64,000 nucleotides of DNA from contig QCHK01000007.1 of assembly GCA_003279635.1 (NCBI GenBank), positions 1-64,000 on the forward strand. The letters are read 5' to 3'. Below the pieces are notes generated by a model that was not told where the DNA came from, did not search any database, and saw only the letters and a program-made list of their open reading frames with translations. Below, piece by piece: positions 7,243 through 15,254 of the stretch (its first letter is position 1; each line of letters starts with the position of its first letter). The position numbers were made by a program, and so were the translations under genes. The stretch is from Prochlorococcus sp. AG-402-B05 (GTDB lineage Bacteria > Cyanobacteriota > Cyanobacteriia > PCC-6307 > Cyanobiaceae).

Positions 7243-7306
7243 ATTAAGCTTGAAAGCCACAAAACAATTTTGCCTCATGTGATCTAAGTCATTTTATTTT
7301 TTAGTA

Positions 7307-7335
7307 GTGACAAAAAGTCCTCATTGGAGTAAAAA
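7307..7335 (+). promoter_or_regulatory. Promoter of the first Yfr1/Yfr10-core sRNA
   Basis: GTGACA (7307-7312), a 17-bp spacer and TAAAAA (7330-7335) look like -35 and -10 elements. The same -35 hexamer, 17-bp spacer and a TACAAA -10 occur at the second copy (14,922-14,950) although the spacers differ, which supports function. Transcription would start near 7342. Confidence 0.65.
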
Positions 7336-7341
7336 TAAAAT

Positions 7342-7412
7342 AACAGGACAACTCCTCACACAATCGTTCTGTTAAAAAAAGCACCCGACTTCTTGTAAGC
7401 CGGGTGCTTTTT
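7342..7412 (+). ncRNA. Yfr1/Yfr10-core small RNA, copy A
   Basis: The RNA carries the 11-nt motif ACUCCUCACAC (7351-7361), which I know as the ultraconserved core of cyanobacterial Yfr1 and shared by Yfr10. The core sits in the loop of an 8-bp stem (7342-7349 with 7366-7373, one G-U pair). A short A-rich linker leads to an intrinsic terminator (GCACCCG 7381-7387 with CGGGTGC 7401-7407, then T5). In copy B (14,957) the stem differs by a compensatory change. The close link to a Yfr2-type RNA and the unusual location favour Yfr10 over the single Yfr1 gene of Prochlorococcus. Known Yfr1 acts as a trans-acting antisense regulator; targets here cannot be read from the sequence. Confidence 0.8.
7374..7412 (+). 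terminator. Intrinsic terminator of sRNA copy A
   Basis: A 7-bp GC-rich stem (7381-7387 / 7401-7407) is flanked by A7 on the left and T5 on the right, so it may work in both directions. Confidence 0.85.
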
Positions 7413-7501
7413 AATGATTGTTTTTGCGAAGTATAAGATGTGACAATCAATAAACCAACCTTCTCAAATTTGATTTTTTCATCAGATGCGCAAATATCCA
7501 A

Positions 7502-7596
7502 TTGTGAGGAGTTGAGATCCTCCGCAGTGGAAACAAGGAAACACTTGCGCCTGATCTTAAAAAAAAACCGCCTTTTTCAGAACGGGCGGTTTTTTC
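7502..7596 (+). ncRNA. yfr2: Yfr2-family small RNA, copy A
   Basis: About 95 nt. It has the two GGAAACA repeats (7529-7535, 7537-7543) that mark the Yfr2 family, displayed in the loop of a CGCA/TGCG stem (7523-7526 / 7546-7549). A 5' hairpin (GAGGA 7506-7510 with TCCTC 7518-7522) comes first, and a terminator (CCGCC 7568-7572 / GGCGG 7585-7589 plus T run) ends it. Its 5' segment TGTGAGGAGTTG (7503-7514) is perfectly complementary over 12 nt to the loop of the preceding sRNA. In the literature the Yfr1 and Yfr2 motifs are nearly complementary and the RNAs are thought to interact. Family assignment is from memory of the motif, not from a covariance-model search. Confidence 0.8.
7561..7596 (+). 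terminator. Intrinsic terminator of Yfr2 copy A
   Basis: A7 precedes CCGCC (7568-7572), the loop, GGCGG (7585-7589) and a T6 run, a classical rho-independent terminator. Confidence 0.85.
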
Positions 7597-7697
7597 TTTT
7601 GACTTAGAAAAGTAAAATAAAAAACAAGTAATGAGAAGGGTATTCACGCCAATTTTTAAAATAAATCAATTAAATTAAACATTTTAATTATTAACAA

Positions 7698-9321: not shown

Positions 9322-9492
9322 TTAATCTTTCCAATACTCATCCCACTCTACTTCTAATTCAGTTTTTGATAAAGAGTTATAAAAACATCTCCATTTCTTT
9401 TCTGAATTAGCCTCAGTTGCACTCAATGAGACCATTAGATTTATTGCTTCTTCTTCACTAAAATATTTTTCTTTATTTAATTTGAAGATCAT
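9322..9492 (-). CDS. Small ORF (56 aa) translationally coupled to the ion channel
   Basis: The ORF encodes 56 residues, from MIFKLNKEKYFSEEEAINLM to EVEWDEYWKD. Its ATG overlaps the channel's TGA as ATGA (9489-9492), a standard arrangement for translational coupling. The protein is charged, probably helical, with no membrane segment and a Trp-rich C-terminus. A decayed paralogue lies at 8025-8196, and conservation of the protein sequence between the two supports real coding. No function is recognised. The coupling suggests that it accompanies the channel, for example as a soluble accessory subunit. Confidence 0.7.
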   Translation of the reverse strand: MIFKLNKEKYFSEEEAINLMVSLSATEANSEKKWRCFYNSLSKTELEVEWDEYWKD

Positions 9493-10289
9493 GTTTCATC
9501 ACTGTTCCTAGAAAACTCAATTTCATTCGAAACATTTTTTTTTTCATCTTGTATGCCAATTGATTCGCTGAATCCAGATGCAAGTATTCCAGTAGGTATT
9601 GCAATTGCAGCAATACCCATAAGAGAAGTAATCGATGCAATTATTTTTCCAACTGCTGTCACGGGTATGGAATCTCCATAACCAACCGCACTAACAGTAG
9701 TAATAGACCACCAAAGACATCTTGGAATTGAACCTAACAATCCTGGTTGAATCGATGATTCAGCAAAATACATAAAAGTACTGCTAATCAACAAAAGTAA
9801 AACTGTATAAAAAATCGAAATTTGTAGTTCTTGACTCTTTGATCGAAGTGCATAATTAAAGTGATAAATACTTTGCTTAAATTTTTCACTTCTTCCAATT
9901 TTCAATATTCTTAAAAGGCGGACAATCCTAAGAATCTTTAATTCAGCACGAACACCAATAAAGGATGGGACGATTGCAATTAAATCAATAATTGCCATAG
10001 GTGAGACTAAATAACGCAAAACGCCTTTCCAACCTTGGCCGTATTTCTTTTTAAGTGGTGCGACCCATAAACGACAAAGGTATTCAATGCAAAACAAACC
10101 ACCAATAATCCAATCCAAAAAATCTATCTGATCTCCGAATTTATAATCAATTGAGTTTTCAGTAATGATAACTGCGAAAAAAATCGAAATAAAAATAGTA
10201 ACTCCACAGATTTTATTGAAGACAGAAGTTTTCCCACTTGGTGAGTCATTAATTATCTCCCTATAAATTCTTAGACGTAATTCATTCAT
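9489..10289 (-). CDS. Voltage-gated potassium channel-like protein
   Basis: 266 residues from the ATG at 10,289 (MNELRLRIYREI). The frame extends to a GTG at 10,358, but the added residues look non-native. The layout is that of six-helix Kv-type channels: S1 near VTIFISIFFAVIIT, S4 with regularly spaced basic residues (LKILRIVRLLRILKIGR), a pore helix and the selectivity filter TVSAVGYGD, then S6 (MGIAAIAIPTGILASGF). The filter predicts K+ selectivity. No cyclic-nucleotide or TrkA-type domain follows, only a polar 30-residue tail. It should act in the cytoplasmic membrane in K+ flux or membrane-potential control. It is the first gene of a three-gene unit with the 56-aa and 120-aa ORFs. Confidence 0.88.
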   Translation of the reverse strand: MNELRLRIYREIINDSPSGKTSVFNKICGVTIFISIFFAVIITENSIDYKFGDQIDFLDWIIGGLFCIEYLCRLWVAPLKKKYGQGWKGVLRYLVSPMAIIDLIAIVPSFIGVRAELKILRIVRLLRILKIGRSEKFKQSIYHFNYALRSKSQELQISIFYTVLLLLISSTFMYFAESSIQPGLLGSIPRCLWWSITTVSAVGYGDSIPVTAVGKIIASITSLMGIAAIAIPTGILASGFSESIGIQDEKKNVSNEIEFSRNSDET

Positions 10290-10396
10290 AGCTGCCTGCA
10301 AACTGAAATAGGAATGCATATAAGTTAGGCAAAACATGCTGAATTTTCCTCTAATCACTTAACGACACCAAATGCCGAAAATACTATCTCTGTACT

Positions 10397-14856: not shown

Positions 14857-14921
14857 ACCGTTAAAAATAGTTTTTGTATGTTCCTAAATCTTGCAAAATC
14901 TCAACACTTTCTCTTTCTGTA

Positions 14922-14950
14922 GTGACAAACGGTCTGAATCAGAGTACAAA
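14922..14950 (+). promoter_or_regulatory. Promoter of the second Yfr1/Yfr10-core sRNA
   Basis: GTGACA (14,922-14,927), 17-bp spacer and TACAAA (14,945-14,950), the same layout as at 7307-7335. Confidence 0.65.
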
Positions 14951-14956
14951 TTAATT

Positions 14957-15032
14957 AAGAGGACAACTCCTCACACAATCGTTCTCTTAAACCAAAAAAG
15001 CACTCTTCTTTTTTTAAGTGGAGTGCTTTTTT
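14957..15032 (+). ncRNA. Yfr1/Yfr10-core small RNA, copy B
   Basis: Same organisation as copy A at 7342. The core ACTCCTCACAC (14,966-14,976) lies in the loop of an 8-bp stem (AAGAGGAC 14,957-14,964 with GTTCTCTT 14,981-14,988). Compared with copy A one C-G pair became G-C while the loop is unchanged, which is compensatory evolution and strong evidence that the hairpin is real. The terminator stem also differs (GCACTC 15,000-15,005 with GAGTGC 15,021-15,026, then T6), although its function is kept. It lies 100 bp downstream of the RTX gene. Confidence 0.8.
14994..15032 (+). terminator. Intrinsic terminator of sRNA copy B
   Basis: A-run, 6-bp stem GCACTC/GAGTGC and T6. It is convertible to a bidirectional terminator by the flanking A and T tracts. 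Confidence 0.8.
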
Positions 15033-15052: not shown

Positions 15053-15066
15053 TGGCACATGTGCCA
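15053..15066. promoter_or_regulatory. 14-bp perfect palindrome upstream of Yfr2 copy B
   Basis: TGGCACATGTGCCA lies between the two sRNA genes, about 60 bp before the Yfr2 5' end. Copy A has no counterpart. It is a candidate operator for differential control of this copy. Confidence 0.45.
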
Positions 15067-15122
15067 GTTGGGAAACTCATCTGCGAAGTCTTGAGTCCCA
15101 TGAATGCTTCTAATAAGTTGAA

Positions 15123-15218
15123 TTTGTGAGGAGTTGAGATCCTCCGCAGTGGAAACAAGGAAACACTTGCGTTTGATCTCACAAAGAAACCGCCCTAACA
15201 GAACTGGGCGGTTTTTTT
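15123..15218 (+). ncRNA. yfr2: Yfr2-family small RNA, copy B
   Basis: It is nearly identical to copy A over the 5' arm, the first hairpin and the GGAAACA pair (15,151-15,157 and 15,159-15,165), and diverges after about 15,172. The 5' arm TGTGAGGAGTTG (15,125-15,136) is again perfectly complementary to the core loop of the neighbouring sRNA. The terminator stem is ACCGCCC (15,189-15,195) with GGGCGGT (15,206-15,212) and a T-run. Conservation is much higher inside the RNA than in its upstream region, as expected of a functional RNA gene. Confidence 0.8.
15181..15218 (+). terminator. Intrinsic terminator of Yfr2 copy B
   Basis: A 7-bp GC-rich stem (15,189-15,195 / 15,206-15,212) followed by T7. 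Confidence 0.85.
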
Positions 15219-15254
15219 GTGCCTTTTTAAATACTAAGTACACAAAATATGTAG

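Follow-up and report, generated by a model that had tools for sequence, protein, structure and literature searches.

Tandem Yfr10-type and Yfr2-type RNA genes with complementary motifs in a low-light Prochlorococcus genus

Introduction

A short motif upstream of Yfr2-type RNA genes was seen as early as 2007, at 150-160 nt from the 5' end of Yfr2 and 128-138 nt before Yfr5 (PMC2190773). In the following year Yfr10-Yfr2, Yfr12-Yfr4 and Yfr18-Yfr5 were described as neighbours in MED4, where pairing between them was predicted and put forward as a candidate interaction, and where Yfr10 and Yfr2 were found on a common precursor of 270 nt (PMC2518516). The interaction of Yfr1/Yfr10 with Yfr2 was demonstrated in MED4 by reciprocal pull-down in 2019; the same work, which also used primer extension, reported that Yfr2 restores a GFP reporter repressed by Yfr1 and, from an RNase E assay, that Yfr1 or Yfr10 protects Yfr2 from RNase E (PMC6778093). 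The resulting model is built on titration between Yfr1/Yfr10 and Yfr2, with separate control of Yfr10 and Yfr2 measured in MED4 (PMC6778093). Adjacency of the genes was stated for high-light strains, and their proximity was suggested to enhance the interaction (PMC6778093, Lambrecht 2019).

The window analysed here is a stretch of 64,000 nt from contig QCHK01000007.1 in the draft genome of Prochlorococcus sp. AG-402-B05, which comprises 62 contigs and 1.76 Mb. It contains two tandems that resemble the Yfr10-Yfr2 tandem of MED4 (PMC2518516) in gene order, strand, the placing of the motif in the loop of an upstream hairpin with Yfr2 downstream, similar spacing, the predicted pairing of this loop with the Yfr2 5' end and the association with variable regions. 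Adjacency, shared precursor, pairing and titration are already published for MED4, and the locus is nothing new in kind. What is new is that the tandem is standard in a low-light genus, that its pairing is gap-free over 12 bp and that it lacks partner specificity. In MED4 and other high-light genomes, unlike here, aCUCCUcACACAC pairs with GUGUGUAGGAG across a bulge and a mismatch (the high-light motifs being ACTCCTCACACAC and GTGTGTAGGAG), whereas the present motifs match at 12 of 12 positions and their pairing extends on the other side (CAAC/GTTG) relative to the high-light pairing. A further difference from the MED4 tandem is the presence of several unequal copies per genome. The interaction and mutual titration proposed here are identical to those of the Yfr1/Yfr10-Yfr2 network, although predicted here and shown there; that network was studied in MED4, with adjacency stated for high-light strains, and a low-light genus is now added (PMC6778093).

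The two tandems in the window

Two complementary 12-mers on the forward strand define the first tandem (copy A). CAACTCCTCACA, the Yfr1/Yfr10 motif, was read directly at 7349-7360, and TGTGAGGAGTTG, its complement at the Yfr2 5' end, lies at 7503-7514; an inverted-repeat search returned them as arms complementary at 12/12 positions (100%) with 142 nt between them. The preliminary description of this DNA had already claimed complementarity at 12 positions, which holds, and had placed the second arm exactly, while its first arm (7350-7361) was shifted by one base. The second tandem (copy B) carries CAACTCCTCACA at 14964-14975 and TGTGAGGAGTTG at 15125-15136, both on the forward strand and again complementary at 12/12 positions. 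With at most one mismatch allowed, the window holds four matches to the 12-mers against 0.15 expected from shuffles, and these four are both arms of copy A and both arms of copy B. In an alignment of 325 columns the two copies share about 72% identity, indicating old relatives and not a fresh duplication. Between them an ion channel protein (Pfam Ion_trans, Ion_trans_2) is encoded on the reverse strand at 9489-10358; the small proteins around pair A had no match in Pfam. The features of both copies are collected in Table 1.

Table 1. Coordinates of the RNA genes and associated elements in the window
Feature	Position	Strand	Basis and details
TAGTGACAAA before Yfr10 copy A (conserved)	7305..7314	+	direct reading; -35-like position
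Yfr10-type RNA copy A	7343..7412	+	folding, inverted repeat, Rfam RF02362
Hairpin and terminator of Yfr10-type RNA copy A	stem 7343-7349/7366-7372, 16-nt loop; then intrinsic terminator stem 7376-7387/7401-7412	+	folding, inverted repeat
TGTGACAAT element before Yfr2 copy A	7439..7447	+	alignment of upstream regions
Yfr2-type RNA (Cyano-1) copy A	7498..7598	+	Rfam RF01701 at 7498-7562, 62.4 bits; terminator arms 7559-7572/7585-7598
TAGTGACAAA before Yfr10 copy B	14920..14929	+	same element as in copy A
Yfr10-type RNA copy B	14956..15032	+	stem 14956-14964/14981-14989, terminator 14994-15032; folding, Rfam RF02362
TGTGCCAGTT element before Yfr2 copy B	15060..15069	+	alignment of upstream regions
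Yfr2-type RNA (Cyano-1) copy B	15120..15221	+	Rfam RF01701 at 15120-15184, 63.5 bits; terminator arms 15180-15195/15206-15221

The upstream gene is predicted to fold into a hairpin with a stem of 7 bp in copy A and 9 bp in copy B, each closed by a 16-nt loop that holds ACTCCTCACAC; the loop of copy A contains 11 of the 12 motif bases, C7349 being the last base of the stem. The Yfr1 motif ACUCCUCACAC is exposed in this predicted hairpin loop, as is characteristic of Yfr10, and the gene stands upstream of a Yfr2 homologue on the same strand. Across 77 Yfr10 relatives the loop motif has a mean unpaired probability of 0.99. The stem of copy B (AAGAG/CTCTT against the usual AACAG/CTGTT) represents a compensatory change. 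Full-length matches to the Yfr10 model RF02362 score 38.5 bits (A) and 33.6 bits (B), both below the gathering cut-off of 43, despite a complete ACTCCTCACAC motif, hairpin and terminator in both copies; because this cut-off is missed, and as it is a database threshold and not a biological feature, the genes are labelled Yfr10-type. Yfr10 homologues have little in common outside the motif (PMC6778093). The TAGTGACAAA element precedes 48 of the 77 Yfr10 genes of the genus, and a match to a consensus -35/-10 promoter lies upstream of Yfr10 copy A at 7307-7336, which is a sequence match and no proof of activity.

Both downstream genes exceed the gathering cut-off of 41 for RF01701 and are therefore members of this family; their predicted fold leaves the conserved 5' end with GUGAGGAG unpaired and has an interrupted stem topped by the apical loop GGAAACAAGGAA. 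Upstream of Yfr2 an element resembling TGTG[AC]CARTT (TGTGACAGTT-like) was found in 69 of the 77 linked genes and in 35 of the 40 unlinked ones, and throughout the genus nearly every Yfr2, copies A and B among them, is preceded by TGTGACAGTT followed by AAACT. This element is a candidate for CGRE1, the site of a GntR regulator (DNA Research 2018). The elements before Yfr10 and before Yfr2 are different, which is consistent with separate control as measured in MED4.

Yfr1 (RF01116) shares the ACTCCTCACAC motif with the Yfr10-type RNAs. However, in Yfr1 the motif lies between two stem-loops, the gene has a fixed guaB/trxA site and no Yfr2 adjoins it. Of 17 good-quality genomes of the genus, 15 carry Yfr1; it was not found in this draft. 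The assembly lacks the entire guaB-yfr1-trxA stretch, as does one other draft (G020), while the query matches four relatives with identities of 88-91%. An assembly gap is the apparent cause, and the absence of Yfr1 here is not to be read as loss; a replacement of lost Yfr1 by Yfr10, as proposed for SS120, was dropped for the same reason.

Distribution of the linkage

Four Yfr2 genes are present in this genome, together with three ACTCCTCACAC motifs, each of which lies upstream of a Yfr2. The distance from the motif to the Rfam match is 137 nt in copy A, 144 nt in copy B and 351 nt in a third pair on another contig. The fourth Yfr2 lies 34 nt from a contig end, and its upstream side is cut off. 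Across the genus (41 genomes) we counted 128 Yfr2 genes and 140 motifs outside Yfr2. For 82 of the 128 Yfr2 genes a ACTCCTCACAC motif lies within 700 nt upstream on the same strand, and for none on the opposite strand, a pattern not due to chance; the spacing is 89-144 nt in 77 of these and 302-352 nt in five, most loci having 107-144 nt. The linked pair, which the preliminary description had singled out as worth a look, is therefore common in the genus and not unusual, quite apart from the linkage having been noticed in 2007 and published in 2008.

Of the 46 unlinked Yfr2 loci in the genus, 40 were inspected. About eleven have a mutated or truncated Yfr10 hairpin upstream, mostly at the usual spacing, and many of the remainder share one conserved solitary site. 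The solitary Yfr2 at this site (loci L149-L182), found in many genomes of the genus and preceded by CCGAAATATGCTCAAGTCCCCGTTCCTTGGC, may be the ancestral copy. None of the four Yfr2 genes in the present draft was found to correspond to it.

Among genomes of the family at least 80% complete, the exact linked pair occurs in 24/24 of this genus, in 114/147 of the genus whose pairs are of the high-light type and in 1/3 of a third genus. How often the two genes adjoin had been put forward as a matter for survey, and the tandem proves common in the first two of these genera. It was found at this spacing in 0/218 other genomes of the family, a count that covers exact motifs and misses diverged ones. 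Yfr2 genes less than 10 kb apart are on the same strand in 37/37 pairs, and several contigs carry clusters of Yfr10-Yfr2 pairs (G037:C13, G016:C21, G025:C6 and G017:C6), with close neighbours on one strand throughout. Carriage of the pair by phages or viruses was considered and rejected. Two viral contigs matched the Yfr2 core, neither scoring as Cyano-1, and the one inspected was coding-like sequence; the Yfr10 hairpin was not found in viral contigs, and phage records returned only unrelated coli-phage matches (79% identity over about 50 nt).

Partner specificity

If neighbouring genes were adapted to each other, they would be expected to pair better than genes drawn from different loci. The mean predicted duplex energy is -20.15 kcal/mol for neighbours and -20.10 kcal/mol for non-neighbours, with 20% of 2000 permutations doing as well; within the same genome the values are -20.19 and -19.89 kcal/mol, a nominal difference of 0.3. 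The energy test was run without L135, which is a real pair. The motif variants point the same way: the Yfr2 motif is mutated beside an intact Yfr10 motif in several linked loci (L070, L078, L086, L097, L123 and L140), and the reverse is seen in L147, L184 and others. The search for exact motifs enriches for unchanged Yfr10 motifs and so weakens the test for covariation, a bias that the 40 unlinked loci partly offset. One locus, L161 (G012:C14:20272-20846), has a matched double change (CTGCTC/GAGCAG; CAACTGCTCACA with TTTGAGCAGTAG). It is a decayed locus, with the 3' half of Yfr10 and its terminator deleted and a degenerate Yfr2 below the Rfam cut-off, and the change could be due to chance or to templated correction between the inverted-repeat arms. 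Apart from L161, neither energies nor motif variants give any sign of partner-specific coevolution, which we reject. The two genes of a tandem are not exclusive partners, and mutations in its two halves are mostly uncompensated. This suggests that both RNAs belong to a cell-wide pool.

Interpretation of the tandem

The contact foreseen between loop and 5' end is predicted to be strong. The 12-mer duplex has an energy of -19.3 kcal/mol, opening of the Yfr10 loop costs 3.6 kcal/mol, and the net gain on cofolding is -12.3 kcal/mol for copy A and copy B alike. The locus is very probably an ordinary Yfr10-Yfr2 tandem, one more locus of a genome-wide Yfr1/Yfr10-Yfr2 network whose members pair in trans into a common pool. 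It would encode two sRNAs, each with its own promoter and its own terminator, and the exposed Yfr10 loop (ACTCCTCACA) would bind the single-stranded Yfr2 5' end (TGTGAGGAGT) in trans. By analogy with MED4, both RNAs would be expressed here and binding would titrate them, so that neither reaches its mRNA targets; homology with MED4 suggests that it would also shield Yfr2 from RNase E. Each Yfr2 copy could pair with any copy of Yfr10 or Yfr1, so that neighbours would supply a common pool and form no private switch. The self-titrating module envisaged in the preliminary description thus survives in part: the pairing is predicted to be strong, and titration by this RNA pair has been shown in MED4 (PMC6778093), but control confined to neighbours does not fit, since non-neighbours pair equally well and each gene has a separate upstream element and terminator. 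The adjacency itself was probably inherited and spread through tandem duplication, its likely benefit being matched dosage together with cis pairing on read-through transcripts.

Whether the linkage has any function is a separate matter. Chance ancestral neighbours may simply have been copied together in genomic islands, which is compatible with the common-pool reading as far as the activity of the RNAs is concerned. Same-strand clusters of tandem pairs, the decayed Yfr10 remnants before some Yfr2 genes and the existence of solitary Yfr2 genes are what such a history would leave behind. However, the tandem has been kept in both the high-light-type genus and the low-light genus with nearly invariant motifs, and the fairly uniform spacing is not required by pure duplication and may hint that the linkage has a function. 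A linkage devoid of function is accordingly a doubtful reading, albeit one to be taken seriously.

We consider it quite improbable that the two genes form a local module, in which read-through of the Yfr10 terminator would give partial co-transcription and cis pairing, and the ratio between free Yfr10 and free Yfr2 would be set locus by locus. On a read-through transcript the two motifs are predicted to pair in cis with a probability of 0.995 in 71 loci, and this duplex is the MFE structure of both copies in the window; a module would also agree with the 270-nt common precursor of MED4 (PMC2518516), with the narrow range of spacing and with the suggested enhancement of the interaction by proximity (Lambrecht 2019, PMC6778093). 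However, a shuffled spacer does nearly as well (0.973), suggesting that the spacer is not tuned for cis pairing. Moreover, the two genes are separated by a strong intrinsic terminator, Yfr2 is preceded by an upstream element of its own, there is no partner-specific covariation, and the third pair of this genome lies 351 nt apart. Processing into separate RNAs would in any case send both back to the common pool. It is also conceivable, if unlikely, that the tandem of low-light Prochlorococcus is a dosage-locked self-titrating unit with a cis-paired read-through precursor, in which duplication, as in copies A and B, would scale both RNAs and leave their balance unchanged. Lastly, a DNA-level element (a recombination or protein-binding site) is suggested by the perfect inverted repeat itself, but this is hardly tenable given that the arms occupy defined places in separately conserved RNAs, the Yfr10 loop and the Yfr2 5' end, and that each motif also occurs alone, in Yfr1 and in solitary Yfr2.

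The tandem is no high-light peculiarity and is a lasting feature of a low-light lineage too, in several diverged copies per genome. These copies offer a natural set of variants for testing the need for complementarity and for linkage. The accepted model is unchanged, with the missing partner specificity favouring a cell-wide pool over local switches.

Accessibility of the Yfr2 5' end

Two competing folds are predicted for Yfr2, one in which a GAGGA/TCCTC hairpin hides the motif and one in which a GAGAUC/GAUCU stem frees it. Among 109 distinct Yfr2 sequences, double changes occur at 5/6 core pairs of the GAGAUC/GAUCU stem and at none of the GAGGA/TCCTC hairpin. Opening of the 5' motif is predicted to cost 0.2-1.0 kcal/mol, depending on the 5' end assumed. 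A 5' end always locked in the GAGGA/TCCTC hairpin, which had been named as the case that would speak against the pairing, is therefore not what the predictions give, with opening so cheap and compensatory changes confined to the alternative stem, and we reject it, with the proviso that the outcome depends on the 5' end. With a longer assumed 5' leader the mean unpaired probability of the motif is 0.40 in 71 loci and 0.18 for copy A; openness differs with leader length, so this result hinges on the position of the 5' end, which is unmapped. For copy B the modelled energies of the two folds differ by at most 0.4 kcal/mol, which would allow an equilibrium between them.

A minor observation, made at 7506-7510 and 7518-7522 in copy A and at 15128-15132 and 15140-15144 in copy B, concerns the internal UCCUC of Yfr2, which mimics the Yfr10 motif. 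It is nearly invariant, though partly unpaired in the covariation-supported fold, and is possibly a built-in competitor for the 5' end of the same RNA.
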